A DNA stretch of 64,000 nt, taken from Bacillota bacterium (GTDB taxonomy: Bacteria; Bacillota; Bacilli; Paenibacillales; NBRC-103111). This document shows positions 16,923 through 62,023 of the stretch, one piece after another. The notes below the pieces were generated by a model. The model worked only from the letters and a program-made list of their open reading frames with translations. It had not been told where the DNA came from and made no database searches. Where the stretch lies: positions 62,001 to 126,000 of the forward strand of contig JAEWIS010000023.1 of NCBI GenBank assembly GCA_023386955.1. Direction: 5' to 3'. The translations under genes were made by a program, and so were the position numbers. Positions within the stretch are counted from its first letter, which is position 1; the number at the start of each line of letters is the position of its first letter.

Positions 16923-19247
16923 TTACGCCTCCTTGAGATGGTGGGAAATTCTGACGTTCTGAATGCCGGAAACGCCTAACATGGTGGCGGTGACGACGCA
17001 GGCAACGATCAGCAGGGGGCAAACCAGGTAGACAAACCAGGGGTTTACCGCAAAATGGAAGGCTGCTGCGCCAAAGGAGGAGATAATCGCTGTGCCCACT
17101 AGCTCTCCCAGCGTATTGGCCAGTATGGTGCCCACGGTAACTCCCAGCACCAGGACAGTGATGGACCGCGTAAGATATTGTCTGCGAATATCCATGCCGG
17201 TGAAGCCCGTGGCCTTCAGGATGGCGATGGGATAACGGTCCTTCGCCACCAGCATGTTCATAAACAGCATTGTAACCAGCAGGATCAGCAGGGCGGTTGC
17301 TCCGATGGCGGTGACGGAGGCTTTTTGGATGGCATTCCGCACAGGGCCAAGCATCTGCCTAATGGTTTCGTCAATGCCGGTAACCTTGGCGAAGGGGAAT
17401 TGCTCCCTGTACTGCGATATGGCTGCTTTCACATTCTGCCGGTCACGGAAGGTCACCGCAATGCCCGTACTCAAAACCTCTTCATGTTTTGCGTCAAAAG
17501 TGGCCTGCGCCGTCCGTCCCCCGTTGGTGACATCCGAATAAATGCCGGATACTGTCAGGTGTTTTTCAGCACCGTCCACGATTAATACCACTTCATCCCC
17601 AATGGTTTTCTCAAGATCCTTGGCATTGAGGACAGAGAGGGCCAGCTCCGATTCTGATCGAGGCGCGTGTCCTTTGGAGTAGGTTATGGGATAGGCGGCA
17701 TAATCCCCCACGGTTACCCGCAGCCGCTCTGTCCTTCCGTCATCTGTCCTCCGGTTAAGCATCAGGCCGGTGAACAAAGCGTACCGTTCCACATTCTGAT
17801 CCGCCGCCAGCATACCGGCAATTTCCGCCGCTTTCCCCGGAACGTCCTCCACCTGTGTTCGCATCACTCCGATATTGACGTCGCATATGCCCATCCCCAT
17901 GGAGGTGATGAAGCTATCCTTCGAGATGGTGCTGCTGATATTCTGCGGAACGATCATCAGGAAGGAGGAAATGACCAGCACCATCAGCATGGTGAGATAG
18001 AGCTTTTTCCTGACAAGGACATCCTGGATACCGAGAAACACATTCCGCGAAAAAAGCCGGTTCCAGCTCAGCCTGAGGAGTCTGGCTGATCTGGATTTGT
18101 CCCGGGGTGCGCCGAACCGGACCGCCTGTGCCGGGGATATCCTGCGGAAGCGCCGCAGCACGCCGTTCACATACAGCAAAATCATCCCGAAGATGACCGC
18201 CGCTCCCAAAAGTCCGCAGACAAAACCAGGTAATGGGCTGCCACCTTCCCCGATATACAGACGGATGTTCCGCATAAAGGGAGTTTGGAGGGGCAGGGAG
18301 GCCAGAAAGCCCAATACACACGCCGCCCCGGCCATGACGCCGTATTTTGCAAGGAAGAGCTTTTTCATCTGCTGCAACGGTATGCCAATCGCCTTCAGGA
18401 CACCGATTTCCTTGTAATCCTCTTCGATTTTGGCCAGCAGGGTAAAGCGGATACACAAGAACGCCACCATGATAACCAGAAGGCCGATCAGCACCAGCAC
18501 AGCAATCATGATGCCGTCCGTAAGGCCGTTGATCATCTTCACCTGCGTGTACGTGATCGGGGGCGGGCCATTGGCCGGAAGCCCCGCTTCCAGATAGGCC
18601 GCCTCGAAGGCTTGGAAGGATACGTCCTTGGCCAGCCGGAATTCAATCAGGTTTTCGACCTGTCCGAAGACACGGACCTTCTCGAAATCCGCCGGGCTCA
18701 CCAGAAACCGCTTGGAGCTAATCAATGCGGGGTTCATGATGGAATCTCTTAAAAATCCTGCAACGGTAAAGGAAACGCCATGGATAACCACCGGATCGCC
18801 CAACGCGGCCTCTTCCTTATAGTAGAGAGGCACATACATTTCGCCGTTGGCAGGATGGATAACCTCACCGTTCAGGTCAAGCAGGAAGTCGAATTTGTCC
18901 CCCTGCACGGAAAGGCCGTTGTCCTGTATGCTTCCGGCAAGGGAATCCTCCCCGATGACAATATCTGAACCCTCCAGGTTGAGGAACTCCAGCACCTGAA
19001 CCTCCTCCACCGTGCCGTTGGAGTCTGCGAATCGCCGCAGTTGTCCCATATCCACGCCACCTGTGTGCATTTGCATATAATGGACCGACTTTGCCGAAAG
19101 CAGCATATGGTCGATAGTGCCCATCAGGTTGGCGGAGAGTGAAGCGGCCAACGCGGTCAGCATGGCGGAAATGAGGATAAATGCTGTCACCGTCGCGGTA
19201 GTCACCTTGCTTCGGCGCATATCGTTCTGAATCATTCTCCGATACAT
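16923..19247 (-). CDS. FtsX-like ABC transporter permease
   Basis: This is a permease of 774 residues with two FtsX-type halves. An N-terminal span (about 18-42) leads to a large extracytoplasmic domain, then three spans (about 245-370); a second long soluble region is flanked by a span near 420 and three C-terminal spans (about 640-760). The start is best placed at 19247, six bases from GAGGG; an ATG at 19253 abuts the ribosome binding site. It partners the ATPase downstream. Unlike transport-type permeases, FtsX-type systems usually do mechanical work on lipoproteins, wall enzymes or antimicrobial peptides. The kinase gene ends just upstream, so all four products are co-expressed. Confidence 0.85.
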   Translation of the reverse strand: MYRRMIQNDMRRSKVTTATVTAFILISAMLTALAASLSANLMGTIDHMLLSAKSVHYMQMHTGGVDMGQLRRFADSNGTVEEVQVLEFLNLEGSDIVIGEDSLAGSIQDNGLSVQGDKFDFLLDLNGEVIHPANGEMYVPLYYKEEAALGDPVVIHGVSFTVAGFLRDSIMNPALISSKRFLVSPADFEKVRVFGQVENLIEFRLAKDVSFQAFEAAYLEAGLPANGPPPITYTQVKMINGLTDGIMIAVLVLIGLLVIMVAFLCIRFTLLAKIEEDYKEIGVLKAIGIPLQQMKKLFLAKYGVMAGAACVLGFLASLPLQTPFMRNIRLYIGEGGSPLPGFVCGLLGAAVIFGMILLYVNGVLRRFRRISPAQAVRFGAPRDKSRSARLLRLSWNRLFSRNVFLGIQDVLVRKKLYLTMLMVLVISSFLMIVPQNISSTISKDSFITSMGMGICDVNIGVMRTQVEDVPGKAAEIAGMLAADQNVERYALFTGLMLNRRTDDGRTERLRVTVGDYAAYPITYSKGHAPRSESELALSVLNAKDLEKTIGDEVVLIVDGAEKHLTVSGIYSDVTNGGRTAQATFDAKHEEVLSTGIAVTFRDRQNVKAAISQYREQFPFAKVTGIDETIRQMLGPVRNAIQKASVTAIGATALLILLVTMLFMNMLVAKDRYPIAILKATGFTGMDIRRQYLTRSITVLVLGVTVGTILANTLGELVGTAIISSFGAAAFHFAVNPWFVYLVCPLLIVACVVTATMLGVSGIQNVRISHHLKEA

Positions 19248-19257
19248 ATCCATCCCT

Positions 19258-20391
19258 CTATCTTTCTGTACCCTTATCTTTCGGAAACCTTAAGACAAAC
19301 CTCTTGGTATAAGGGGAGGGGGCAGCCAATACGAAAACCTCACCCGAATGCTGCTCCATTACCTTTTTCACAATGGCAAGCCCCAGTCCTGTCCCGCTGC
19401 TGGCGCTTCTTGAATCGCTGCCGGAAACAAAAGGCTCGAACAGATTCCCGGCGATAGCCTCCGGGATGGCAGGTCCGTTATCGTCAATTTGGATGGTGAT
19501 ACAGCCGGGTTCCTCTGTCAGTCCCACGGACAGTAGACTGCCCGCAGGGTTATGGCGGATGGCATTGGTGAGCAGATTGCTAATGGCACGGTTGGTTTCC
19601 AGCGAATCCGCCATACAATATACGGGGGTGTCCGGGAGCTGCAGCTCCAATGTCATCTGCTTGTTTTCGATTTCACCGAATATAACGGCGCAGGAAACAC
19701 GAAGCAGCTCGGCCAAATCAACCTTTTCCACCTTCATCCGGTATTGGGGGGTACCCAGCTTGGAATAAAAATGCAGCTGGTCAATCAATTGGTTCATCTG
19801 CCCGGCTTTCGCTTTTATCGCCAGATGGTATTCCTGCTGTTTGTTCGGCTCCTCCACCAAACCGCTGGACAAGGCTTGCGCATAGCCGGAAATGGTGGTG
19901 ATGGGGGTTTTTAAATCATGGGCGATGTACGAAAAAAGCTGCATCCGCTCGTTTTCCATGGTCATCCGTTTTTCCTCGGACTCCTTCAGCTTCTGTACCA
20001 TCAGATTGAAGCCATCCCGCATATCCTTAAATTCCGTTTCCGTTTCAAAATCCAGCGTGGTGTCCAAACGGCCGGCGGTTACTGCCTTAAAGCCTTGTTC
20101 CATTTTCCTCACAGGAACCAATAGCTTCTTGTTCATTCCCCGTCCAAACAGGATAATCCCTGCAGCATACACGGCAGCGGTTATGAGTATCCAGGAGGCC
20201 GACAATATGATTTGAAGCTTTTTCGTTCCTTCCTCCAAGGGGGAGGAGGCCAGCTCCGAGAAGTTCATGCCGTTCTTCCAGGTAAACAGGCTGAACAAAA
20301 ACTCCAGCAGCAGAAGCGACAGTGCAATGCCGAGGATACAGCCGATGAAGCTGCGCATGATAAGGCTTTTGAAGCTTCGTCTGTTCTTCAT
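19258..20391 (-). CDS. Sensor histidine kinase (HAMP-HisKA-HATPase)
   Basis: This is a 377-residue membrane kinase. Two spans (about 12-34 and 60-84) enclose a short extracytoplasmic loop, followed by a HAMP linker, a dimerisation/phosphoacceptor helix with YIAHDLKTPITTISGY (the His is the phosphorylation site) and a HATPase domain with N box NLLTNAIRH, DDNGPAI and GTGLGLAIVKK. The loop is too small for a classical sensor domain, as in kinases that read stress through their transporter partner. The start overlaps the stop of the response regulator gene by four bases. Likely regulates the ABC genes downstream. Confidence 0.9.
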   Translation of the reverse strand: MKNRRSFKSLIMRSFIGCILGIALSLLLLEFLFSLFTWKNGMNFSELASSPLEEGTKKLQIILSASWILITAAVYAAGIILFGRGMNKKLLVPVRKMEQGFKAVTAGRLDTTLDFETETEFKDMRDGFNLMVQKLKESEEKRMTMENERMQLFSYIAHDLKTPITTISGYAQALSSGLVEEPNKQQEYHLAIKAKAGQMNQLIDQLHFYSKLGTPQYRMKVEKVDLAELLRVSCAVIFGEIENKQMTLELQLPDTPVYCMADSLETNRAISNLLTNAIRHNPAGSLLSVGLTEEPGCITIQIDDNGPAIPEAIAGNLFEPFVSGSDSRSASSGTGLGLAIVKKVMEQHSGEVFVLAAPSPYTKRFVLRFPKDKGTER

Positions 20392-21074
20392 ATCCCCACC
20401 TCCAGGCGGTATCCCAAACCCCGGACCGTTCCGATGGATACCGCGCTATCGCCAGGCAGCTTGCCCCGCAGCTTGCTGATGGCCACCATCACCGTATTAT
20501 CGTCGACGATGGCTGACTCCTGCCAGGCCGCATCATAAATCTGCTGCTTGGTGTATACACGTCCGGGCTGCTGCATAAACAGCTTCATCATGTTAAATTC
20601 CGTGGCGGTAAGTGGGATGATCCCGGCACCAAAGCGAAGCGTACAAGCCGTAACATCCAGGCTTAACCCGCCTGTGCACAGCATAACCCTTTCGGCATCT
20701 GCCGCAACGCAGTCGTAACGGCGCAATTGGGCTTTGATCCGGGCCACAATTTCCAGAGGGTCAAAGGGTTTGGCTACATAATCGTCGGCACCCAGATCCA
20801 GTCCCAGGATTTTTTCGTGATTCTGCGTTTTGGCGCTCACCACAATAATCGGAAGATTGCTGTGTGCCCGCAAACCCTTGATAAGCTGGTAACCGTCCAG
20901 CTCCGGCATCATAATATCGATCACCGCCAGATCAATCCGCGCGGACGCTGCCTGCTTCAGGGCCTCTAATCCATTCTCCGCCTGAATGACAGAATATCCG
21001 TCCTTTTCGATATACAACCGCAGCAGCTCCCGGATTTCCTTCTCGTCATCCACGACCAGTATCGTTTTGCTCAT
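20388..21074 (-). CDS. OmpR/PhoB-family response regulator
   Basis: This 228-residue regulator has a receiver domain (ILVVDDEKEIRELLRLY, phospho-acceptor Asp in DLAVIDIMMPELDG, Lys in DDYVAKPFDP) and a C-terminal winged helix (LTATEFNMMKLFMQQPGRVYTKQQIYDAAW). It is the first gene of the minus-strand operon with the kinase and FtsX-type ABC transporter. Upstream, two ACCTTAA heptamers spaced 11 bp apart are placed as an OmpR-family binding site would be, so the operon is probably self-regulated. Confidence 0.92.
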   Translation of the reverse strand: MSKTILVVDDEKEIRELLRLYIEKDGYSVIQAENGLEALKQAASARIDLAVIDIMMPELDGYQLIKGLRAHSNLPIIVVSAKTQNHEKILGLDLGADDYVAKPFDPLEIVARIKAQLRRYDCVAADAERVMLCTGGLSLDVTACTLRFGAGIIPLTATEFNMMKLFMQQPGRVYTKQQIYDAAWQESAIVDDNTVMVAISKLRGKLPGDSAVSIGTVRGLGYRLEVGI

Positions 21075-21274: not shown

Positions 21275-21613
21275 GTGAATGTTATCCAAAAAACGTTCAG
21301 TATCCTTCTAATAATGTTCTTTGTAGGAATTGTGATTCTATTTGGTTGGATCAAGTTAACCGTCTATCAGTTAGAGAAAGATGTCCAATCTTATTTGGTG
21401 GAGGAAAAAGGTTACCAAGAAGCGGATATTTCCACGTTGAAAGGACAATTTTCCAAATTGCCGACGTTTAGTGTTGATGTGACTTTTCGAGATGAGCCTC
21501 AAAAGATCTATTATTACATGCGGGATAACGGACATATCGTTCAGTACAATTGCGCTTCTGTATCTGATCCATTCGACCACGGCTGCAAGCATAAAGAAGT
21601 GAAGGGATCGTAG
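21275..21613 (+). CDS. DUF3139-like small membrane-anchored protein
   Basis: This 112-residue protein has one N-terminal membrane segment (about 7-27) and an outside domain with YLVEEKGYQEADI and a YYYMRDNG strand near residues 78-85, matching the DUF3139 pattern of short Bacillales proteins with no known function. The GTG start at 21275 follows AAGGAGG (21260-21266). The promoter-like element upstream is nearly identical to that of the ABC exporter at 9.6 kb. It stands between two opposite regulatory systems and does not seem part of the nitrate block downstream, which has its own TATAAT at 21650-21655. Confidence 0.7.
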   Translation: MNVIQKTFSILLIMFFVGIVILFGWIKLTVYQLEKDVQSYLVEEKGYQEADISTLKGQFSKLPTFSVDVTFRDEPQKIYYYMRDNGHIVQYNCASVSDPFDHGCKHKEVKGS

Positions 21614-21691: not shown

Positions 21692-22951
21692 ATGACAACG
21701 GGAATGACAACGTTTCAGAAGACCAAAACCTTCGTGCGGTTTATGGTGAAAAACGGAATATTGGCCGTGACGACAACCCTGATTATTGTGCTGGCGATCC
21801 GGGCGATTCTGCATGAGCAGGAGCGGGGCTGGCTGGAATATGTTCCGATTTTCTTGTTTGTGCTGATGATTATTACGCTGTTCTTCTTTATGATCTATTG
21901 GCAGAGTCATAAGCTGCGGTCGGAGCAGGAGCTGCTGGCGAATGTGTTTACCCATAGTCCGGACGGAATTCTGGTGCTGGATCAGGAGCTGAATATTATC
22001 CGGATGAATCCGGTGGCCGGGCAGATGATGCAGATCGGCGAGGAAGCGGCTGTGTTGAATTTTTGCAGTGTGTGCTCCAATTATCCGGGGCTGCATAAGC
22101 TCTGCTCGTACCAGAATTGTTTCATTACGGAGCCGGGGGCGCAGGTGATGACGCTGCAGCTGACGACGCCCAGCGGGTTGAAGAAGTCGATGAATGCCAG
22201 CCTGTCGCAATATCAGGACCCGATCTATGGTCCTTTGAATATTCTTCGGATGCAGGAGGTGGAGGGGCAGCGCCAGGAGGAGCAGAATCAGATTGCCAGG
22301 ATGATCACCCACTCCATTCTGTCCGCGCAGGAAAATGAACGGAAGCGGATTTCCCGTGAGCTGCATGACGGCATTGGCCAGTCCCTATACAGCATCCTCA
22401 TCCAGACGGAGATCATTAAAGCTTCGCAGGAGGCCGAGGAGGAAGCAGCAGAGAATAAGCCGATGACGGCTTTACAGGAATCGATCCGCCATACCATTGA
22501 GGATATCCGCGATTTGTCTGCCGAGCTGCGCCCTTCTGCCCTGGATGATATCGGACTGGTGCCAGCCTTGCGGAATTATGTGCGCTTGTACGGTCAGAAA
22601 TTCGGCATTCAAGTGCTGTTTACCATGGAAGGGGACAGCGGCCGTCTGCCTGCAGCCCACGAAATCGCGCTGTACCGTATCGTGCAGGAGGCACTGACCA
22701 ATGCGGCGAAATATTCCCAGACGGAAGTGGTGGATGTGAAATTGAAGCTGCATCCGGAGTTTGCCGAATTGGTGATCCGCGATTATGGAACCGGATTCGT
22801 GATCACGACGGAATTGCGTCAGGGCGTTGGGCTGTATAGTATGGAGGAACGGGTGAACATACTGGGCGGGGAATTCGAGATCGAATCCGCGCCGGGTCAA
22901 GGGACGGTTATCCGGGTCAAGGTGCCCATCACCGGCCAGCATACCAGGTAA
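21692..22951 (+). CDS. nreB: NreB-like sensor kinase with Cys-rich PAS domain
   Basis: This 419-residue kinase has two membrane spans (about 22-40 and 50-69), a PAS domain (about 80-195) and a HisKA_3/HATPase unit typical of the NarX/NreB group (phospho-His in ISRELHDGIGQSL; GVGLYSMEERVNILGG; GQGTVIRVKVP). The PAS domain holds four cysteines, C125, C128, C138 and C143. NreB of staphylococci binds an oxygen-labile [4Fe-4S] cluster through four PAS cysteines, so an oxygen-sensing role is likely. The spacing here (C-X2-C-X9-C-X4-C) differs from the one I know (C-X2-C-X11-C-X2-C), and the known NreB is soluble, while this one has membrane spans. It is followed by its response regulator, then a GAF protein and the nar genes. 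Confidence 0.85.
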   Translation: MTTGMTTFQKTKTFVRFMVKNGILAVTTTLIIVLAIRAILHEQERGWLEYVPIFLFVLMIITLFFFMIYWQSHKLRSEQELLANVFTHSPDGILVLDQELNIIRMNPVAGQMMQIGEEAAVLNFCSVCSNYPGLHKLCSYQNCFITEPGAQVMTLQLTTPSGLKKSMNASLSQYQDPIYGPLNILRMQEVEGQRQEEQNQIARMITHSILSAQENERKRISRELHDGIGQSLYSILIQTEIIKASQEAEEEAAENKPMTALQESIRHTIEDIRDLSAELRPSALDDIGLVPALRNYVRLYGQKFGIQVLFTMEGDSGRLPAAHEIALYRIVQEALTNAAKYSQTEVVDVKLKLHPEFAELVIRDYGTGFVITTELRQGVGLYSMEERVNILGGEFEIESAPGQGTVIRVKVPITGQHTR

Positions 22952-22969: not shown

Positions 22970-23623
22970 ATGGATATTAAGGTATTGATTGTGGACGATC
23001 ATGCTGTAGTCCGGGACGGACTCCGGGCCGTGCTGGATGCGAAGCCGGGGATCAAGGTAGTGGGCGAAGCGGAGGATGGCATATCCTGCATGAGGAAGGC
23101 TCTCGAGCTGCACCCTGATCTGGTGCTCATGGACCTGAGTATGCCTAATGGCCGTGACGGATTGTATACCACGAGTGAGCTGGTGCAATCCATGCCAGAG
23201 GTGAAGGTCATCATTCTGACCATGCATGACGAAGACCAATATTTGTTCCGTGCGCTGAAGGCCGGAGCGTCAGGATACATTTTGAAGTCGGCGCCTATGT
23301 CGGAGCTGATCACGGCGATTCTGCAGGTTCATCAAGGGCTTGTTTACCTGCATCCCAATGCCACCAAGAAGGTCATAGAGGGTTATCTGCAGGGCCAGAC
23401 CAAGGAGATGACAGATACCTTCGAGACATTAACCGAGCGGGAGAAGGAAATTCTCACACTGGTAGCCAAGGGATACACCAATAAGGAAGCCGCCGAGCTG
23501 CTAACCATCAGTGTGAAGACGGTGGAGAACCATAAGGCGAATATTATGGAAAAGCTGCAATTGAATAACCGCCGCGAATTGATGAAATTTGCGCTGCGAA
23601 GGGGGCTGCTTGACTTTGATTAA
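22970..23623 (+). CDS. nreC: NreC/NarL-family response regulator
   Basis: This 217-residue regulator has a receiver domain (VLIVDDHAVVRDGLRAVL; phospho-acceptor in LVLMDLSMPNG; Lys in YILKSAP) and a LuxR-type helix-turn-helix (LTEREKEILTLVAKGYTNKEA, split as TEREKEILTLVA and KGYTNKEAAELL). It partners the Cys-rich kinase 18 bases upstream and should activate narK and narGHJI when oxygen is low and nitrate is present. Candidate targets are the paired inverted repeats before narK and narG. Its last 14 bases overlap the start of the GAF gene. Confidence 0.9.
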   Translation: MDIKVLIVDDHAVVRDGLRAVLDAKPGIKVVGEAEDGISCMRKALELHPDLVLMDLSMPNGRDGLYTTSELVQSMPEVKVIILTMHDEDQYLFRALKAGASGYILKSAPMSELITAILQVHQGLVYLHPNATKKVIEGYLQGQTKEMTDTFETLTEREKEILTLVAKGYTNKEAAELLTISVKTVENHKANIMEKLQLNNRRELMKFALRRGLLDFD

Positions 23624-24509
23624 CGAAAGCGGCCAACCGCTTACCACACAGCAGCAGATTCAGCTGGAATTGCAGCAGCTGAAGTCGGATATGGCGCTGG
23701 ATTTTGTCGCTTTGGCCTTGGCGGATGCCAATTACCGGGATATCCATTGGAAAATTGCGCTTGGCGCCCAATCCGAACGGTACAAAAAAATTACAGTGCG
23801 TATGGGCAACGGGATGGCAGGCAAAGTCTTGCAGACCAGACGGCCGCATGTGGTGACGTATTTCCCGGAGGAGGTCCAGGATGAGGTGTTGGGTTATCCG
23901 ATATTTCTCGTGGAATCGCTGCGCTCCGGAGTAGGGGTTTCGGTGGATTCCGTCCGGCCCGAGCAGAAAAAAGCCTATGGTGTCCTGCTGGTAGGGCAGC
24001 GGGAGGAACGGATTTTCAGCGAATCGGATATTGAAGCGGTGAAACGCTCCGCCGCGAGACTGGCTGTATGGTATGACAGCATAACAACCCCTGCCCAGGA
24101 GCCCGAAGCGCAGGAAACGCTCCAGGAGGAGAAGGCCAGCCCGCTGCTGCTCCGGTTGAAGGAGTTCCGTAGACAGGGCATTACCTGCCAATTGCTGGAT
24201 CAGCGGATGACGCGGCTTCCTCTTGAACGGCAGGAGCAGATCGCCGCCATTCTGGAGCTGCTGGTGCGCCATAGCATCGAGGCTCATGCCACGGCGGGAG
24301 TTGTACTAGGACAGGACGAAGCAGGCAATACCCTGGTTGAATTCGAAAGCGAAGAAGACACCCTGGTATCCCGCGAGCTTCTGGACCCGGTTAAGGAAGA
24401 GCTGTTTGCCTTAAAATGCGATTTGGAGATTCTGGCGGAAGGCAGCAGTCAAACCGTACGGTTTACGATACCAACGCGGATACTGCTGGATGAGCAGCAC
24501 TGGAACTGA
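23610..24509 (+). CDS. NreA-like GAF protein with degenerate histidine-kinase ATPase tail
   Basis: This is a protein of about 299 residues from the TTG at 23610, which follows GAAGGGGG (23598-23605) and overlaps the regulator gene; TTG 23616 is an alternative. Residues about 20-150 form a GAF domain (VRMGNGMAGKVLQTRRPHVV, YGVLLVGQREERIFSESDIE). In staphylococci a GAF protein, NreA, binds nitrate and controls NreB, and the gene order here suggests the same job. The C-terminal 120 residues are extra: ILELLVRHSIEAHATAGVV and SSQTVRFTIPTRI resemble the N box and last strand of a HATPase domain, but Asn/Asp ATP-site residues and the glycine boxes are missing. It may dock on the kinase as a pseudo-ATPase. 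Nitrate binding is inferred from context. Confidence 0.75.
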   Translation: MTLINESGQPLTTQQQIQLELQQLKSDMALDFVALALADANYRDIHWKIALGAQSERYKKITVRMGNGMAGKVLQTRRPHVVTYFPEEVQDEVLGYPIFLVESLRSGVGVSVDSVRPEQKKAYGVLLVGQREERIFSESDIEAVKRSAARLAVWYDSITTPAQEPEAQETLQEEKASPLLLRLKEFRRQGITCQLLDQRMTRLPLERQEQIAAILELLVRHSIEAHATAGVVLGQDEAGNTLVEFESEEDTLVSRELLDPVKEELFALKCDLEILAEGSSQTVRFTIPTRILLDEQHWN

Positions 24510-24526: not shown

Positions 24527-24563
24527 TGGGGAAATTCCTGCGAAGCAAATGAGGGATTTCCCC
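24527..24563. promoter_or_regulatory. Inverted repeat between the GAF gene and narK
   Basis: TGGGGAAAT (24527-24535) and ATTTCCCCA (24555-24563) are perfect inverted arms, extended by TCC/GGG. A short ATTCTTTT follows, so it may be the terminator of the sensor operon. A similar repeat follows narK, so an operator role is also possible. A second small dyad, TCTCCA/TGGAGA, lies at about 24582-24600 just before narK. Confidence 0.55.
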
Positions 24564-24630
24564 AATTCTTTTCATGAGCGTCTCCACGGATAATGGAGAG
24601 AGGCAGTTGATGTCATGAGGAGGAATGGGA

Positions 24631-26217
24631 ATGAAACCACCCAAAGGGATTTTGCCGCTGCAGACCTTCAGCTTGATCCTGGGATTTGCGGTTTGGGGGA
24701 TCTTGTCATCGTTGATCGTGTTTATCAAGGACGGGATTGCTTTAACCCCGGGGCAGTTATCTCTCGTTACAGCAGTGCCAGTTGTGCTTGGTTCGATTCT
24801 GCGGATTCCCTTCGGCTACTGGACGAATAAATTCGGTGCCCGCAATATGTTCCTGGTCAGCTTCATCGTGCTGCTCGCTCCGGTATTTTATATCAGCCAG
24901 GCCCAAAGCTTCACCGATCTGATTATCGGCGGGTTATTCCTGGGTATATCGGGCGCCACCTTCTCCGTAGGGGTCACCTCTCTGCCGAAGTATTATCCCA
25001 AGGATAAACACGGGTTTGTCAACGGAATTTATGGACTGGGCAATTTAGGATCAGCAATAAGTACCTTTTTTGCTCCGGTGCTGGCTTCGCAGATCGGATG
25101 GCGCTCCACGGTGCAGATGTATTTGATTCTGCTGGCAGCCTTTGCCCTGGCCAACTTCCTCATCGGAGACCGGAAGGAATCCAAGCTCAATGTCCGGCTG
25201 ATGGAGCAGATCAAAGGCATCTACCGCAATGAAAAGCTATGGCTGATCTGCTTTTTCTACTTTATTACCTTCGGCTCCTTCGTTGCGTTTACGGTTTTCC
25301 TGCCGAATCATCTGGTGAATACCTTCGGGATCAGCAAGGTGGATGCGGGACTGCGGACCGCCGGATTCGTAACGCTGGCCACCTTCATGCGGCCAACGGG
25401 TGGATGGCTTGGAGACCGGTTTAATCCCTTTAAAATCTTGGTGCTGGTATTCAGCGGCTTGACCATCGGCGGCATTCTGCTGGCATTTTCCCCGTCGATT
25501 CCGCTTTTTACGGTGGGCTGTCTGTTGATCGGGCTTTGCGCCGGGCTGGGCAACGGCACGATCTTCAAATTGGTTCCGCTTTACTTTGCGAAGCAATCCG
25601 GGATTGCCAACGGTTTGATCTCTGCCATAGGCGGTTTGGGCGGTTTTTTCCCGCCTCTGATGCTGGCTTCCCTGAAGGCCATAACCGGACATTATGCAAT
25701 CGGATTCATGGCGTTAGGGATGGTTGCCCTGTGCAGCGTTCTGCTTGCCCTCTACATGTACTGGCAGGATCGGGTAAAGCTGGCGGAGCAAATGATCCAG
25801 AGCACCTCCCAGGCGGTGTTGGTGACCAATCCCAAGGGACTGATCCTAACCGTCAATCCGGCGTTTACAGCCATTACCGGCTACACCAAAGAAGCGGCTA
25901 TCGGGCAAAAGCCGGGTTTTCTGAAGTCCGGGCTGCATGATAAGAAGTTCTACGAATCCATGTGGAAGCAGCTGGCTGAGGAACAGGCATGGTCGGGCAG
26001 CATCTGGAACAAAAAGCGCAACGGTGAGGTATATCTTCAGCATATCACTATTAACGCCATCCAAAATGACGTTGGAGAAACCGCCTATTATGTAGGCGTT
26101 TTCAACGAGATTAATGCCGGGCAGCCTGCGCCGACCGACGCTGCTCCGGAATTAACCAGGTCCTTGCCACAGGCCGGATTTGCAATGCAACCACCAAAAC
26201 CGGCAAGGCCGTTCTAA
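24631..26217 (+). CDS. narK: Nitrate/nitrite transporter NarK fused to a PAS domain
   Basis: This 528-residue protein combines a 12-span major facilitator transporter (residues about 8-380) with a cytoplasmic PAS domain (about 385-493). The transporter part has both nitrate-signature loops (GLGNLG 135-140; GLGNG 305-309) and the two membrane arginines that bind substrate in NarK (R58 in SILRIPFG and R254 in FMRPTGG). The PAS part has the standard core (LVTNPKGLILTVNPAFTAIT, WSGSIWNKKRNGEVY). The ATG at 24631 is seven bases from GAGGAGG; the ATG at 24625 is too close. It sits between the nitrate sensor genes and narG. A NarK with a PAS tail is unusual: the tail could gate transport by redox or ligand state, or report transport to a kinase. 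Confidence 0.88.
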   Translation: MKPPKGILPLQTFSLILGFAVWGILSSLIVFIKDGIALTPGQLSLVTAVPVVLGSILRIPFGYWTNKFGARNMFLVSFIVLLAPVFYISQAQSFTDLIIGGLFLGISGATFSVGVTSLPKYYPKDKHGFVNGIYGLGNLGSAISTFFAPVLASQIGWRSTVQMYLILLAAFALANFLIGDRKESKLNVRLMEQIKGIYRNEKLWLICFFYFITFGSFVAFTVFLPNHLVNTFGISKVDAGLRTAGFVTLATFMRPTGGWLGDRFNPFKILVLVFSGLTIGGILLAFSPSIPLFTVGCLLIGLCAGLGNGTIFKLVPLYFAKQSGIANGLISAIGGLGGFFPPLMLASLKAITGHYAIGFMALGMVALCSVLLALYMYWQDRVKLAEQMIQSTSQAVLVTNPKGLILTVNPAFTAITGYTKEAAIGQKPGFLKSGLHDKKFYESMWKQLAEEQAWSGSIWNKKRNGEVYLQHITINAIQNDVGETAYYVGVFNEINAGQPAPTDAAPELTRSLPQAGFAMQPPKPARPF

Positions 26218-26271: not shown

Positions 26272-26305
26272 GGGGAATTCCTCCTGTGGAATGGGGGAGT
26301 TCCCC
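26272..26305. promoter_or_regulatory. Inverted repeat between narK and narG
   Basis: GGGGAATTCC (26272-26281) faces GGAGTTCCCC (26296-26305), with a loop of 14 bases. It resembles the repeat before narK in both arm sequence and loop length. It is followed by CTCTCTT, a weak terminator tail, and lies about 50 bases upstream of a TACAAT -10-like box (26325-26330), so it could end narK transcripts or bind a regulator of narGHJI. Confidence 0.5.
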
Positions 26306-26368: not shown

Positions 26369-29300
26369 ATGAATAAGTTCAATCCTCTAATCCAAAAGCT
26401 GAAGTTTTTCCAAAAGCGTGAAACCAATGCGGAAGGGTGGAGTGAAGAATCCACAGCCGACCGCTCCTGGGAGAACATGTACCGGAACCGTTGGCAGCAT
26501 GACAAGGTAGTCCGTTCCACCCACGGGGTAAACTGCACGGGCTCCTGCAGCTGGAAAATATTCGTGAAGGACGGAATCGTCACCTGGGAAACCCAACAGA
26601 CGGATTATCCCACCACAGGGCCGGATATGCCGGAATTCGAACCCCGGGGCTGTCCCCGCGGAGCCAGCTTTTCCTGGTATCTCTACAGTCCCCTCCGTGT
26701 GAAATATCCCTATATCCGCGGCAAGCTGCTGAATCTGTGGCGCGAAGCCAAGAGCAAACATCATGATCCCGTAGAAGCGTGGACCTCCATTGTCCAGGAT
26801 GAGCAGAAGAAGCTGACCTACAAATCGGCCCGGGGCAAAGGCGGCATGGTCCGTGCTTCGTGGGATGAGGTTACGGAAATTATCTCCGCGTCCATGTTAT
26901 ATACCATCAAAAAGTACGGTCCTGACCGGGTCATCGGGTTTTCCCCTATACCGGCCATGTCCATGGTCAGCTACGCGGCAGGCTCCCGGTTCCTGTCTCT
27001 TCTCGGTTCACCCTTGCTGAGCTTTTACGACTGGTATGCGGATTTGCCTCCGGCCTCCCCGCAAATCTGGGGCGACCAGACGGATGTTCCCGAAAGCAGC
27101 GACTGGTATAACTCCAGCTATCTGCTGGTCTGGGGTTCGAATCTGCCGATGACGAGAACGCCGGACGCCCATTTTATGACGGAGGCCCGTTACCGTGGAA
27201 CCAAGGTGGTATCCATCAGCCCGGACTATGCGGAGTTTGTGAAATTCGCAGATAAATGGCTGCCCGCCAAACAGGGAACCGACGGCGCTCTAGCGATGTC
27301 CATGGGGCATGTCATATTAAACGAGTTTTATGTGAAGCAGCGTACGCCTTATTTTGAAAACTACTCCAAAAAATATACGGATTTCCCGTTCCTCGTGCTG
27401 CTCCAGGAGCAGGATGGGGCATATATGGCAGACCGGTTTCTCACAGCCCATGATCTGGGGGTCACCACGAATAACAGCGAATGGAAGACGGTTCTCATAG
27501 ATGAAAATACAGGGGAGCTGCGTATCCCCAACGGCACCATCGGCTCCCGCTGGGGGGAAGAGGGCAAGTGGAATCTGCAGATGGTAGACACCATAACCGG
27601 GGAAGAGATTGATCCCCAGCTGGGTTTGCGGGATTCCGCGGCAGGCAAGCTGGTGGTCAGGCTGCCGTATTTCTCTGATGAGGGGAAATCTGCCGTTTCC
27701 CGGTTAATTCCATACCGCACTGTCACCGATGCCAATGGCGTTGAGCACCGCGTCACCAGTGTGTTCGATCTGATGCTGGCCCAATATGGCGTTGATTCGG
27801 AGCAGGGAAGTGACTACGATGACGCCAGCATCGCCTATACTCCGGCTTGGCAGGAGGAAATCACCGGCGTGGACCGGGCTTCCATCATTCAGATTGCCCG
27901 GGAGTTCGCGCAGAATGCGGTAGACAGTGAAGGCCGCTCGATGATTATCGTCGGGGCAGGGATTAACCACTGGTACAACTCGGATACGATTTACCGCAGT
28001 GTGCTGAACCTGGTCCTGATGACAGGCTGCCAGGGTGTCAACGGCGGAGGCTGGGCGCATTACGTCGGCCAAGAGAAGCTGCGTCCTGCGGAAGGCTGGG
28101 CCAATGTAGCCTTTGCCAGAGACTGGACCATGCCGCCGCGGCAGCAGAACGGGACTTCCTTCTTCTATTTTGCCACCAATCAATGGAGATTCGAATCCAA
28201 TCCTGTAGACGGTCACACCTCGGCCTTAACCGGCAAAGCCCGGTATGCCCATTATGCGGATTACAATGTGTTGGCGGCGCGTCTGGGCTGGCTGCCGTCT
28301 TATCCGCAGTTTAATAAGAGCTCCATTGACCTGGCGGAGGAAGCAGCGGGACAAGGGCATCAATCCCCTGAGGCGGTAGCGGCATATGTGGCGGCTCAGC
28401 TCAAAAATAGAGAGCTTCAGTTTGCCATTGAAGATCCCGATGCGGAAACGAATCACCCCAAGGTGATGTTCGTCTGGCGGGCCAACCTGATCTCCAGCTC
28501 CGGCAAGGGGCATGAATATTTCCTGAAATATCTGCTGGGCGCACACAATGGTCTCTTGAATGATGACTCGGAGACGCTTCGTCCCGAAGAAATCCAATGG
28601 CATGATCAAGCGGCGGAGGGCAAGCTGGACCTGATGGTGGATATCGACTTCCGGATGTCCGGAACCGCCGTGTATTCGGATATTGTCCTGCCGGCGGCAA
28701 CCTGGTACGAAAAAAGCGACCTTTCGTCCACAGATATGCATCCCTTTATCCATCCGTTTAACCCGGCGGTACCGCCATTGTGGGAATCCAAGTCGGACTG
28801 GGAAACCTTCAAGGCCATTGCCAAGACCTTCTCGGAGATGGCTGAACAGCAATTTGACACCCCGCAACGGGATATTGTAGCCGTCCCGCTTCAACATGAC
28901 AGTCCGGATGAGCTGGCCCAGCCCTTCGGTAAGATTCTCGACTGGAGCAAAGGCGAAGTTGAGGCTATTCCCGGCAAAACCATGCCCAAGTTTGTGGTGG
29001 TGGAGCGGGATTACGCTGCCGTGTATAAGAAGATGACCTCTCTGGGGCCGAACATTAAGGATAAGCCTTATGGTATTAAGGGAATGAGCTGGTCTGCGGC
29101 TGACGAATACGAATTGATGAAGAAGGTTAACGGTGTTGTGGATGAACCCGGCATTAGCCAAGGCTGTCCGAAGCTGGTGACGGACCGCCACATGTCGGAG
29201 GCGATTCTCACCTTATCCTCTACAAGCAATGGCAAAATGGCCGTGAAAGCGTGGGAGGCCTTGGAGAAGAAAACGGCGCTTAAGCTGAAGGATTTGGCGG

Positions 29301-30049
29301 AGGACCGGATGGAGGAGCGCTTCACCTTCGAAGCGATTACCACCCAGCCGAAGACGGTGATTACCTCGCCTGCCTTCAGCGGCTCCGAGCAGCATGGACG
29401 GCGTTATTCACCCTTCACCACCAATGTGGAGCGGCTGATTCCATACCGGACATTGACCGGGCGCCAGCACTATTTCCTGGATCATGAGATGCTGACCGAG
29501 TTTGGCGAGAATCTGGCGGTTTACAAGCCGACCATGAAGCATGCGCCTTTCCATACCAACAAGAACCGTCCGGCGGCCAAGGGCAAGGAAATTACCCTGA
29601 ACTTCATGACTCCGCACAGCAAATGGTCGATTCACAGTATGTATTTCGATTCACTGCCCATGCTGACTCTGTTCCGGGGCGGACCTACCGTCTGGATCAA
29701 CAAGGACGATGCCGCTGATGCGGACATTAAGGATAACGATTGGATTGAATGCTTCAACCAAAACGGTGCGGTAGTGGCACGGGCGGTGGTCACACACCGG
29801 ATGCCCCGGGGAATGGCGTATATGCATCATGCCCAGGACCGGACGATAAACGTGCCAGCAACGGATGTAACAACAACTCGCGGCGGGACCCATAACAGCC
29901 CAACACGGATTCATGTGAAGCCGACCCATATGATCGGCGGATATGCACAGCTGAGCTACGGCTTCAACTACTACGGGCCTACAGGAAACCAGCGGGATCT
30001 GTATGTGGTGATCCGTAAACTTGAGGAGGTGAACTGGCTTGAGGATTAA
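26369..30049 (+). CDS. narG: Respiratory nitrate reductase alpha subunit
   Basis: This 1226-residue catalytic subunit reduces nitrate to nitrite at a bis-MGD molybdenum centre on the inner face of the membrane. The N-terminal FS0 [4Fe-4S] ligands are H52, C56, C60 and C95 (STHGVNCTGSCSW, RGCPRGASFSW), the His-first pattern of true NarG. The Mo-site Asp region VPESSDWYNSSYLLVWGSN is intact, and no twin-arginine signal is present, as expected. The ATG at 26369 follows AAGGAG with good spacing; a GTG at 26351 is in frame but unsupported. Length matches the family. It overlaps narH by 11 bases and heads narGHJI. Confidence 0.97.
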   Translation: MNKFNPLIQKLKFFQKRETNAEGWSEESTADRSWENMYRNRWQHDKVVRSTHGVNCTGSCSWKIFVKDGIVTWETQQTDYPTTGPDMPEFEPRGCPRGASFSWYLYSPLRVKYPYIRGKLLNLWREAKSKHHDPVEAWTSIVQDEQKKLTYKSARGKGGMVRASWDEVTEIISASMLYTIKKYGPDRVIGFSPIPAMSMVSYAAGSRFLSLLGSPLLSFYDWYADLPPASPQIWGDQTDVPESSDWYNSSYLLVWGSNLPMTRTPDAHFMTEARYRGTKVVSISPDYAEFVKFADKWLPAKQGTDGALAMSMGHVILNEFYVKQRTPYFENYSKKYTDFPFLVLLQEQDGAYMADRFLTAHDLGVTTNNSEWKTVLIDENTGELRIPNGTIGSRWGEEGKWNLQMVDTITGEEIDPQLGLRDSAAGKLVVRLPYFSDEGKSAVSRLIPYRTVTDANGVEHRVTSVFDLMLAQYGVDSEQGSDYDDASIAYTPAWQEEITGVDRASIIQIAREFAQNAVDSEGRSMIIVGAGINHWYNSDTIYRSVLNLVLMTGCQGVNGGGWAHYVGQEKLRPAEGWANVAFARDWTMPPRQQNGTSFFYFATNQWRFESNPVDGHTSALTGKARYAHYADYNVLAARLGWLPSYPQFNKSSIDLAEEAAGQGHQSPEAVAAYVAAQLKNRELQFAIEDPDAETNHPKVMFVWRANLISSSGKGHEYFLKYLLGAHNGLLNDDSETLRPEEIQWHDQAAEGKLDLMVDIDFRMSGTAVYSDIVLPAATWYEKSDLSSTDMHPFIHPFNPAVPPLWESKSDWETFKAIAKTFSEMAEQQFDTPQRDIVAVPLQHDSPDELAQPFGKILDWSKGEVEAIPGKTMPKFVVVERDYAAVYKKMTSLGPNIKDKPYGIKGMSWSAADEYELMKKVNGVVDEPGISQGCPKLVTDRHMSEAILTLSSTSNGKMAVKAWEALEKKTALKLKDLAEDRMEERFTFEAITTQPKTVITSPAFSGSEQHGRRYSPFTTNVERLIPYRTLTGRQHYFLDHEMLTEFGENLAVYKPTMKHAPFHTNKNRPAAKGKEITLNFMTPHSKWSIHSMYFDSLPMLTLFRGGPTVWINKDDAADADIKDNDWIECFNQNGAVVARAVVTHRMPRGMAYMHHAQDRTINVPATDVTTTRGGTHNSPTRIHVKPTHMIGGYAQLSYGFNYYGPTGNQRDLYVVIRKLEEVNWLED

Positions 30050-31508
30050 AGCGCAGATTGGAATGGTCATGAACCTGGACAAGTGCATCGGCTGCCATAC
30101 CTGCTCCGTTACCTGCAAGAACACCTGGACCAACCGTAAGGGCGCCGAATACATGTGGTTCAATAATGTGGAGACGAAGCCAGGCATCGGGTATCCCAAG
30201 CAGTGGGAGAACCAGGAGAAATATAAGGGCGGTTGGGTGCTGAAAAAAGGAAAGCTGGAGCTGCGCTCCGGCAGCCGCGCTAACCGGCTTAAGAATATCT
30301 TCTTCAATCCCGACCAGCCGATGATTGATGACTACTACGAGCCCTGGGATTACGATTACGAGAAGCTGCAGCAAAGCCCGGAACGCAAGCATCAGCCGGT
30401 GGCCCGTCCGAAATCCCAGATCACTGGTGAATATATGAACCTGGAATGGGGTCCCAACTGGGAGGATGACCTGGCTGGTGTGCACGAATCCGGCTACCGC
30501 GATCCCAATATGGCGGGGATTGAAGAATCCGTCCGTATGGAGTTCGAGCAGGTGTTTATGATGTATCTGCCGAGAATTTGTGAGCACTGCATTAATCCCC
30601 CCTGCGTTTCCAGCTGTCCGTCCGGCGCGATGTATAAGCGGGAGGAGGACGGGATTGTCCTGGTGGACCAGAATGCGTGCCGGTCATGGCGGTTCTGCGT
30701 CTCCAGCTGTCCGTACAAGAAGGTGTACTTCAACTGGCAGACCAATAAGGCGGAGAAGTGTACCCTCTGTTTTCCGCGGATTGAACAGGGTTTGCCCACC
30801 ATTTGCTCGGAAACCTGCGTCGGGCGTATCCGCTATCTTGGCGTGATGTTCTATGATGCGGACCGGGTGGAGGCAGCGGCCTCCGTTACCGACGAGCAGG
30901 ATCTTTATGAGTCGCAGCTGGATATTTTCCTCGATCCCAGCGATCCTGAGGTGATTGCCGCAGCACGTGCAGCGAATATTCCCGAGGACTGGATCGAATA
31001 TGCTCAGCGCTCTCCCATTTACAAAATGGCTGTCGATTGGAAAATTGCCCTTCCGCTTCATCCGGAGTACCGGACGCTGCCTATGGTTTGGTATGTTCCG
31101 CCGCTTAGCCCCATTACCAACATGGTGGAGGGCAAGGGGGCAACAGCGTCGCCGGAGGATATTTTCCCCGCCATTGACGATATGCGGATTCCCGTACAAT
31201 ACCTGGCCAATCTGCTCTCGGCCGGGAATACGGAGGTCATTACCCATGTACTGAAAAAAATGGCCGTGATGCGCTCCCATATGCGTTCCTTGAACCTGAA
31301 GAAGGCGCCAGACCTTGATCTGCTGGAGCAATTCGGGATGTCAGCCAAGGATATGGAGGAGATGTACCGCCTCCTGGCCATTGCCAAGTATGAGGACCGG
31401 TTCGTTATTCCGGCAGCACACCGCGAGGAGTTTGCGGATCTGTATTCGGAGCAGGGGGCTTGCGGCTTCACCAATATGATGGGCGGCCCGGGACCCTGCG
31501 GCGGTTAA
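30039..31508 (+). CDS. narH: Respiratory nitrate reductase beta subunit
   Basis: This 489-residue electron-transfer subunit carries four iron-sulfur clusters between the NarI haems and NarG. Cysteine groups are CIGCHTCSVTC (C16, C19, C22, C26), CEHCINPPCVSSC, CRSWRFCVSSC and CTLC with CSETC. The Trp in CRSW replaces a cysteine, which makes that cluster a [3Fe-4S], as in known NarH. The TTG start at 30039 lies inside the end of narG, seven bases or so after GAGGAGGTG, a sign of translational coupling. The N-terminus lacks a signal peptide. Confidence 0.96.
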   Translation: MRIKAQIGMVMNLDKCIGCHTCSVTCKNTWTNRKGAEYMWFNNVETKPGIGYPKQWENQEKYKGGWVLKKGKLELRSGSRANRLKNIFFNPDQPMIDDYYEPWDYDYEKLQQSPERKHQPVARPKSQITGEYMNLEWGPNWEDDLAGVHESGYRDPNMAGIEESVRMEFEQVFMMYLPRICEHCINPPCVSSCPSGAMYKREEDGIVLVDQNACRSWRFCVSSCPYKKVYFNWQTNKAEKCTLCFPRIEQGLPTICSETCVGRIRYLGVMFYDADRVEAAASVTDEQDLYESQLDIFLDPSDPEVIAAARAANIPEDWIEYAQRSPIYKMAVDWKIALPLHPEYRTLPMVWYVPPLSPITNMVEGKGATASPEDIFPAIDDMRIPVQYLANLLSAGNTEVITHVLKKMAVMRSHMRSLNLKKAPDLDLLEQFGMSAKDMEEMYRLLAIAKYEDRFVIPAAHREEFADLYSEQGACGFTNMMGGPGPCGG

Positions 31509-31540: not shown

Positions 31541-32203
31541 ATGAAGGTAATGACGCAGCGTTCCAGCTGGATGCTGTTCTCGCAGCTCCTGCAATACCCG
31601 GATGCGGATTGGCAGGAAACATCGGATGAATTGTACGTGAATTGGTGCCATTTCCTTGAACGCGAGGAAGAGGCTGAGATAGCCGGACCTCTTCAAGAGC
31701 TTGCCGGGCAATGTTTGGCCGGATTGACGGGAATGGATGCGGAGGCAATTCGGGCGGGTTATGTGAAAACCTTTGATTTCGGCAAAAAGTCCAATTTGTA
31801 CTTGACCTACGGACAGCTTGGCGATGACCGGGAACGCGGTCCGGTGCTGCTGCAGCTGAAGCAAGTTTTTGAGCAGGAGGAGATTGTCCTGGCCACAGAT
31901 GAATTGCCGGATTATCTTCCGTTGGTGCTGGAATATGCGGCGGTTGCCGGGGAAGACCGGGGGCTGCGCCTGCTGGTATCCTTCCGGAAAGCCATGGTGA
32001 CCATTCAAGAGGCACTTCACCGCTCAGACAGCCCGTACCGGCATGTGCTGGATGCGATTCTGTGGATTATCGATGAATCAGGAGTCACAGAGGGGTCTTT
32101 TGATATGACGGGAGCGGCCGGTTGCGGAAGCACGCCGCCCGCACTGGGCTGCGGACCCATGTGGGCTGCTGCCGGGTACGGAAACGTAGGGAGGAATGCG
32201 TAA
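31541..32203 (+). CDS. narJ: Nitrate reductase assembly chaperone
   Basis: This 220-residue cytoplasmic chaperone inserts the molybdenum cofactor into NarG and holds NarGH until membrane docking; it is not part of the final enzyme. The sequence has the NarJ/DmsD-type helical pattern (SSWMLFSQLLQYPDADW, ETFDFGKKSNLYLTY-like segment reading VKTFDFGKKSNLYLTYGQLG). The C-terminal tail is Gly/Cys-rich (GAAGCGSTPPALGCGPMW), which is longer than in the E. coli protein. It sits 32 bases after narH and its stop overlaps the narI start (TAATG). Confidence 0.93.
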   Translation: MKVMTQRSSWMLFSQLLQYPDADWQETSDELYVNWCHFLEREEEAEIAGPLQELAGQCLAGLTGMDAEAIRAGYVKTFDFGKKSNLYLTYGQLGDDRERGPVLLQLKQVFEQEEIVLATDELPDYLPLVLEYAAVAGEDRGLRLLVSFRKAMVTIQEALHRSDSPYRHVLDAILWIIDESGVTEGSFDMTGAAGCGSTPPALGCGPMWAAAGYGNVGRNA

Positions 32204-32883
32204 TGGCGTGGGGAAGCCAGTTTCTCTGGGTGATTTACCCTTATTTGATCCTCGTCATCTTCCTTGTAGGTCTCTATTACCGCTACCAGACGGATCAGTT
32301 CGGATGGACAGCCAAATCCAGCGAACTGCTGGAGAAGAAGAAGCTGCGGTGGGGAAGCAATCTGTTTCATATCGGAATCATGCTTGTTTTCTTCGGTCAT
32401 GTGGGCGGTATTCTGATCCCCAAGCAGTGGCTCGAAGCGTTGGGTGTATCGGATCATTTGTACCATACCATGGCGCTTTATGTTGGCTCCATCGCGGGAT
32501 TATTGACCTTGATCGGTTGTATCATTCTGGTGATCCGCCGGTTCTCGGATGCCCGGGTCCGCCGAACCAGCAGCTTCGGGGATATGCTGTCCATCATCCT
32601 GCTGACGCTGATCGTGGTGGTGGGTATGGCTGCGACCCTGTTCAATATGGCTGGGCACTCCGACTTTGATTACCGGGAAACTATCGGACCGTGGATGCGC
32701 GGTGTGCTTCGTTTTATGCCGGACTACACCCTCATGGAGACAGTGCCGCCAATTTTTAAGGTGCATATTATTCTGGGTCTTGCCTTGTTCGCCGTATTTC
32801 CCTTCACCAGACTGGTGCACATGCTGAGCCTGCCCATCAAGTATCTCTCCAGAAGCTATGTAGTGTACCGGAAGCGCAGATAA
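32203..32883 (+). CDS. narI: Respiratory nitrate reductase gamma subunit (cytochrome b)
   Basis: This 226-residue membrane cytochrome b oxidises menaquinol and passes electrons to NarH. Five spans are visible (about 4-24, 45-65, 85-108, 122-145, 178-200), with His residues suited to bind two haems b: IGIMLVFFGHVGG, HTMALYVGS, FKVHIILGLALFAVFPFTRLVHM. The ATG at 32203 has AGGGAGGA (32188-32195) upstream and shares one base with the narJ stop. It closes the narGHJI operon; moaE begins 45 bases further on and may be cotranscribed. Confidence 0.96.
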   Translation: MAWGSQFLWVIYPYLILVIFLVGLYYRYQTDQFGWTAKSSELLEKKKLRWGSNLFHIGIMLVFFGHVGGILIPKQWLEALGVSDHLYHTMALYVGSIAGLLTLIGCIILVIRRFSDARVRRTSSFGDMLSIILLTLIVVVGMAATLFNMAGHSDFDYRETIGPWMRGVLRFMPDYTLMETVPPIFKVHIILGLALFAVFPFTRLVHMLSLPIKYLSRSYVVYRKRR

Positions 32884-61997: not shown

Positions 61998-62023
61998 TTC
62001 CCAAAAATGAGAGGAGCGATTCC

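Follow-up and report, generated by a model that had tools for sequence, protein, structure and literature searches.

The window analyzed here (the whole 64-kb stretch, positions 62,001 to 126,000 of contig JAEWIS010000023.1 from a Bacillota bacterium of the Paenibacillales) codes on its forward strand for a NarK-like transporter of the major facilitator superfamily (MFS) that continues directly into a C-terminal PAS domain. The gene, which we call narK-PAS, is a single uninterrupted open reading frame (ORF) whose parts are as follows.

24631..26217, + strand: narK-PAS coding sequence, 528 amino acids (ORF, Pfam, AlphaFold2)
24631..25761, + strand: MFS/NarK part, residues 1-377, including R58 and R254
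25762..25803, + strand: helical connector, residues 378-391, continuous with transmembrane helix 12 (TM12) and constant in length across the family
25786..26121, + strand: PAS domain, residues 386-497, predicted NifL-type flavin class
26122..26214, + strand: C-terminal tail, residues 498-528, modeled with low confidence (predicted local distance difference test score, pLDDT, below 50 at residues 497-528)

The frame is open throughout from either of two candidate starts, 24625 or 24631, to 26217; the latter is the likelier because the upstream AGGAGG lies too near 24625, and aligned relatives with the N terminus present begin at the corresponding place. The Pfam model MFS_1 matches residues 15-342 (190 bits) and PAS_9 residues 396-497 (51 bits), and the PAS and PAS_3 models match as well, all above their cutoffs. 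The NCBIfam NarK model TIGR00886 was the best transporter model in the scan at 227.4 bits, which does not reach its cutoff of 311.7; hence, we name the protein NarK-like from its fold, which is nearest to NarK structures in the MFS part, and from its arginines. Two intramembrane arginines in TM2 and TM8 of the NarK/NNP transporters bind nitrate (PMC3445494; papers are cited here by PMC number, for the portions of their text that were available), and the residues R58 and R254, which the initial annotation had picked out as intact nitrate signatures, are indeed invariant in all 115 fused proteins, the window included, and in all 39 unfused proteins aligned. The protein is probably a respiratory nitrate, and probably nitrate/nitrite, transporter. 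The AlphaFold2 model (pLDDT 83.1; predicted template modeling score, pTM, 0.70) consists of an MFS bundle and a PAS domain, with TM12 and the connector forming a single helix (residues 355-391), so that the fusion first noted from the letters is borne out by the open frame, the Pfam matches, and the model alike. A sequencing error near position 25770 can be ruled out, the junction being read through with an equal number of residues in 115/115 fused proteins. The tail beyond residue 495 has a median length of 6 amino acids in the fused family, and that of the window protein is longer than most.

The initial annotation took such a fusion to be rare and NarK proteins to end normally after span 12, neither of which holds in this clade. 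The precomputed Pfam annotation shows MFS together with PAS for every one of the best 120 of 3113 matches to the whole protein, and a search with the PAS part returned at least 24 MFS-PAS proteins among the 120 matches listed of 152, the rest being mainly GGDEF/EAL and kinase proteins. The best 80 of 512 loci in named genomes, a set that leans toward fused copies, comprise 79 unbroken fusions and one locus (Virgibacillus subterraneus, L039) with a stop between the parts; the genera include Paenibacillus, Cohnella, Brevibacillus, Bacillus, Neobacillus, Cytobacillus, Virgibacillus, Sporosarcina, Planococcus, and Shouchella. Further counts were made by hand from tables, as were those of the protein searches, in two draws of genomes, where they are lower bounds since few candidates were scored per genome. 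Among 148 genomes from the family of genome G001, 45 have a fused copy (47 copies), alongside 11 plain copies (1 partial) and 1 truncated copy of the same clade; among 150 genomes from the order of genome G005, 23 have one (25 copies), alongside 10 plain copies at 54% identity or more. When both draws are pooled, 72 of the 94 copies of this NarK clade are fused. In a phylum-wide draw, fused copies were found in 4/299 genomes, all four of which also occur in the draw from the family of G001. The 20 rows listed of 434 plasmid records include one fused copy (Niallia taxi, H1). Three of the other rows that align past residue 450 were examined: L189 is a plain 402-amino-acid transporter with a reductase encoded separately behind it, L190 has the same arrangement by annotation, and L191 (Shinella) is a NarK1-NarK2 double. 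The NarK-PAS combination is an old and common one in Bacillus-like bacteria, and the fused form is both commoner and apparently older than the plain one in this clade.

The PAS domain falls in the flavin class of NifL, MmoS, and Aer and is nearest to the flavin adenine dinucleotide (FAD) redox domain of NifL, whose PAS1 (PDB 2gj3) is the closest fold and the second-best profile match; in the VIA-align comparison, NifL comes up when the PAS model is submitted by itself, the MFS part filling the list for the whole model. The FAD contacts Thr41, Tyr83, Trp87, and Asn102 of NifL are each retained by no fewer than 114 of the 115 fused proteins; of the 108 PAS columns, 13 are 99% or more conserved, and these contacts supply four of them. 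FAD-binding PAS clusters have been recognized by a tryptophan in the F-alpha helix together with an asparagine or histidine (PMC10468136); the fused proteins have both, as W445 (114/115) and N460 (115/115). The geometry of the junction is equally rigid, with exactly 50 residues from F359 to N409 and exactly 51 from N409 to N460 in 115/115 fused proteins. The PAS domain lies on the cytoplasmic side, as follows from the usual MFS topology, and forms the C terminus, with no output domain behind it. Given this terminal position and the constant spacing from TM12, the sole covalent route for a signal is back into TM12. Further, the domain is under purifying selection: the proportion of nonsynonymous differences (pN) is below that of synonymous ones (pS) in 28/28 pairs examined (e.g., 0.113 versus 0.80 between the window and L129), even though it evolves faster than the transporter, with mean pairwise identities of 54% and 68%, respectively, among 84 fused proteins.

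Taking these observations together, we propose that a flavin bound to the cytoplasmic PAS domain might act as a redox switch that gates nitrate transport by NarK-PAS. This is the reading that we favor from the sequences and models, and we hold it tentatively, at a little under an even chance. FAD would occupy the PAS pocket; with the cytoplasm oxidized, while oxygen respiration is running, the PAS domain would hold TM12 and the C-terminal half-bundle and transport would be slow; on oxygen limitation, the flavin would be reduced, and the change would pass via the continuous TM12-PAS helix and release transport. Here we infer the binding of FAD, the sign of the effect, and the transporter itself as the target. 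The suggestion in the initial annotation that a sensor could gate uptake by redox state thus gains from the flavin-class fold, the fixed TM12 spacing, and the C-terminal position. Redox inhibition of respiratory nitrate uptake is known and unexplained (PMC3445494), and the NarK-PAS flavin switch is a candidate for it. If the proposal is true, NarK-PAS would clearly exemplify an MFS transporter whose gating depends on a fused redox domain. Proteins with a flavin-type PAS domain at fixed spacing and close relatives that have lost this domain alone form natural pairs in which the idea can be tested directly, and NarK-PAS hence offers a way of testing how oxygen stops nitrate uptake.

Several observations weigh against this proposal. 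The family does not retain six of the 11 NifL contacts (S39, A45, E70, R80, L90, and H133), the position of E70 being a proline in 94% of it, and conserved columns are only modestly enriched at the contacts (4/11; P = 0.026). As matches to the PAS fold, LOV (light-oxygen-voltage) domains come to within about 1 Z unit of NifL, and therefore the fold alone cannot single out FAD. The nine or more losses described below show that the PAS domain is dispensable. E70 of NifL is reported to favor reactivity toward O2 (PMC12540587), and PAS2 of PA0285, which has both the tryptophan and the asparagine, bound no FAD in an assay (PMC10874727). The available text on the oxygen-inhibited NarK2 (PMC3445494) makes no mention of a PAS domain and proposes the quinone pool as the signal; the PAS domain would therefore be one solution and cannot be the general mechanism.

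Light sensing of the LOV kind was considered and ruled out: the photoactive cysteine of LOV domains is expected in the E-alpha region, and none of the 115 fused proteins has a cysteine at residues 427-429. The unkept contacts and the precedent of PA0285 are the main points for the idea that the PAS domain gates the transporter while sensing something other than FAD redox, with a small metabolite or no cofactor at all, as an allosteric or dimerization module. The rigid spacing and terminal position would serve gating whatever the ligand. On the other hand, the four central flavin contacts are near-invariant in a domain of such low average identity, and we regard this version of gating as unlikely, though it deserves a serious hearing.

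A different role is suggested by the neighborhood of the flavin-switch candidate, where the following features lie on the same strand.

21692..22951, + strand: histidine kinase, NreB-like variant, with two hydrophobic segments (by eye), a Cys PAS domain, and HisKA_3
22970..23623, + strand: LuxR/NarL-type response regulator, NreC-like
23589..24509, + strand: NreA-like GAF protein, extended at the C terminus by about 140 residues, start codon uncertain
24528..24563, + strand: palindrome GGGGAAATTCCT-N8-AATGAGGGATTTCCCC upstream of narK-PAS, candidate operator, with GATAAT 25 bases on
26272..26305, + strand: the same palindrome again, upstream of narG, with TACAAT 25 bases on; also found as a hairpin in the terminator scan
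26369..30049, + strand: narG (TIGR01580, 2021 bits)
30039..31508, + strand: narH (TIGR01660, 880 bits)
31541..32883, + strand: narJ (31541-32203) and narI (to 32883)

The same order of kinase, NreC-like regulator, GAF protein, and narK-PAS, followed by narG, narH, and narJ, is found in 7/7 loci of the window clade (the window and L001-L006), with a MobB gene or MoeA-like and MobB genes between narK-PAS and narG in L001-L006. The cysteines of the kinase PAS domain are spaced C-x2-C-x9-C-x4-C in all seven rather than C-x2-C-x11-C-x2-C, the spacing of staphylococcal NreB, which the kinases of 11 other loci have; the window kinase seems to be an NreB-type variant anchored in the membrane. The GAF protein scores 79.7 bits against the NreA model NF038250, with the cutoff of 175 not reached, and its C-terminal 140 residues (24072-24509) are kept in the seven loci and match no Pfam family at an E value of 0.01.

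The palindrome upstream of narK-PAS and narG has the common form GGGGAANTTCC...AATGAGGGAATTCCCC in the seven genomes of the window clade. A regular expression, composed after the sequences had been seen, finds it at 13 of 14 places, where mononucleotide shuffles of these loci yield 0.2 each; the one that it misses (L006, narK) can be made out by eye, and the other 74 loci contain three further sites. Within the window, only two places match the conserved half exactly; allowing up to two mismatches raises this to three, whereas shuffles average 0.57 and 3/100 reach three. A -10-like hexamer (GATAAT/TACAAT) stands 25 bases past the palindrome at 12 of the 14 places and 26 bases past it at one; the pattern is unmatched at narK of L006, where AATAAT occupies that place by eye. 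These hexamers are absent from the output of the promoter scan, and both palindromes contain stretches that score as terminator-like hairpins too. Palindrome and hexamer are consistent with a binding site for an activator, possibly the NreC-like regulator, and we take the GGG-N4-CCC core to be reminiscent of the staphylococcal NreC site. Judged by this common upstream element, narK-PAS and narG are linked by transcription in the window clade.

The PAS domain could be reporting transport or redox state to the NreB-like kinase, the NreA-like GAF protein, or NarGHI instead of acting on its own transporter, a role that the initial annotation had raised as a co-sensor for the Cys-rich PAS kinase. 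The fixed gene order and the palindrome shared with narG speak for it. Against it, NreB-like and NreC-like genes are no more frequent within 4.5 kb of fused copies (15/59 and 16/59, respectively) than of unfused ones (8/23 each), as counted at the 59 fused loci and 23 of the 27 plain loci that extend this far in either direction, and of 81 loci surveyed over up to 8 kb per side (less at contig ends), 46 have narG, 23 an alternative molybdopterin reductase, none both, and 12 neither. We consider this role improbable. The alternative reductase is often accompanied by Fe-S and Rieske proteins, the cluster beside narK-PAS comprising a molybdopterin oxidoreductase (23/81), a membrane protein (22), a Rieske protein (21), and a 4Fe-4S protein (18) at L007, L018, L025, L027-L030, L032-L034, L068, and other loci (gene clusters 7, 8, 9, and 11); it may encode a different kind of nitrate reductase in Bacillales.

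The history of the fusion was traced with trees of 117 rows (176 ORFs, reduced to 154 by removing duplicates and adding the window, and then thinned at 93%) and of 109 rows, which leaves out eight of these (five far outgroups, an extreme branch, a long row, and a partial row). Branch support is the SH-aLRT (Shimodaira-Hasegawa-like approximate likelihood ratio test) value from quick searches, and the base of the transporter tree is poorly resolved. Fused and plain copies are intermingled in both transporter trees, and a single clade of fused proteins apart from plain NarK is rejected by the approximately unbiased test (p = 1.6e-77, for a group defined by the trait and a quick tree). In the PAS tree, a single branch, weakly supported (52), separates the 84 transporter PAS domains from 41 others, and the distances among PAS domains track those among transporters (r = 0.69, reached by 0/2000 permutations; r = 0.46 among 3200 distant pairs). 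Since the transporter PAS domains share one side of one, if weak, branch and the distances correlate, repeated independent fusions are disfavored. The simplest reading of the trees is one fusion followed by at least nine losses; 12 losses are counted on the tree and at a collapse threshold of 80, and 9 with branches under 95 collapsed. Losses in progress are seen in L159, which has a truncated PAS domain, and in V. subterraneus (L039:7953-9500, the same as L089), where a stop codon cuts off a PAS remainder that is 91% identical to the PAS domain of the fused sister L049 (V. litoralis). No PAS remnant was found within about 1.5 kb downstream of 25 of 27 plain copies (above 45% identity). Plain and fused copies share similar neighbors (NarG near 7/23 versus 18/59), and PAS loss shows no clear pattern against seven neighboring genes, the lowest p value being 0.046, uncorrected, for a Crp/Fnr-like cluster. 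It is possible, though we would sooner doubt than expect it, that the ancestral NarK of Bacillales was redox gated with its own flavin switch, with oxygen acting on nitrate uptake through the transporter itself, and that the plain copies are later losses in which this control was abandoned or moved elsewhere.

Loss on this scale with similar neighbors kept indicates that transport does not need the PAS domain, as would be the case if it served stability, assembly, or placement (e.g., beside the nitrate reductase) and sensed nothing. A pure scaffold would not need the conserved flavin-contact columns, and we think such a structural role quite improbable. That the domain is a functionless, vestigial passenger, as repeated loss and the decaying copies in L159 and L039/L089 might suggest, is very hard to credit in view of the purifying selection, constant length, and joint inheritance with the transporter.

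Compared with known systems, the NarK-PAS proteins add a flavin-type sensor, as we read it, to an otherwise familiar transporter. The Escherichia coli nitrate/nitrite antiporter NarK (PDB 4u4w, 4jr9; TIGR00886) has no PAS domain after TM12, unlike the window protein, and the NarK1-NarK2 doubles such as that of Shinella likewise have a fused rear part, but this is a second NarK and not a sensor. NifL PAS1 of Azotobacter vinelandii shares the four kept contacts, whereas its Ser39, Glu70, and His133 are replaced in NarK-PAS, and NifL regulates NifA (PMC8063818), not a transporter. MmoS and Aer (PDB 3ewk, 8dik) are FAD-PAS redox sensors of the same class with a kinase or a chemoreceptor as output (PMC10468136), whereas the protein attached in NarK-PAS is a transporter. 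In the KCNH (EAG/ERG) potassium channels (PDB 4hp4), a PAS domain helps regulate a transport protein, but the channel is unrelated and the domain N-terminal, making this an analogy only. The staphylococcal NreABC/NarT system resembles the window in that a kinase, a regulator, and a GAF protein control nar and transporter genes by nitrate and oxygen (PMC8139620); the window kinase differs in its hydrophobic segments and cysteine spacing, and the window GAF protein in its extra C-terminal part.

MFS transporters with fused C-terminal domains, including PAS, are already in print as a general class to which NarK-PAS belongs: the available text of a 2023 review (PMC10710835) mentions MFS-PAS fusions, citing Willson 2019, without the word NarK. 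Our literature searches found no description of NarK-PAS among the papers listed, though the two primary papers of Willson 2019 may name it. The available text on Bacillus nitrate genes (PMC3475470) reports a narK of 1500 bp in Bacillus azotoformans, assigned to the NarK2 nitrate/nitrite antiporters; as this is the length of the fused genes, it is likely a fusion, although the word PAS is absent there, as it is from the available text on Bacillus licheniformis (PMC4719734).

Among other kinases near narK-PAS, four (L018:1772-2878, L048:11372-13096, L051:766-1869, and L074:11313-12386) have a PAS domain that resembles the MmoS flavin type by eye, and therefore a flavin-type PAS domain may sit in both kinase and transporter at these loci. 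In the window, a small DUF3139 protein (21275-21613) is encoded immediately upstream of the NreB-like kinase. Adjoining the nitrate cluster on the opposite strand (16923-21074, - strand) are an ATP-binding cassette (ABC)-type permease and a two-component pair beside it, a kinase (19258-20391) and a regulator (20388-21074), as judged by eye from the ORF translations.
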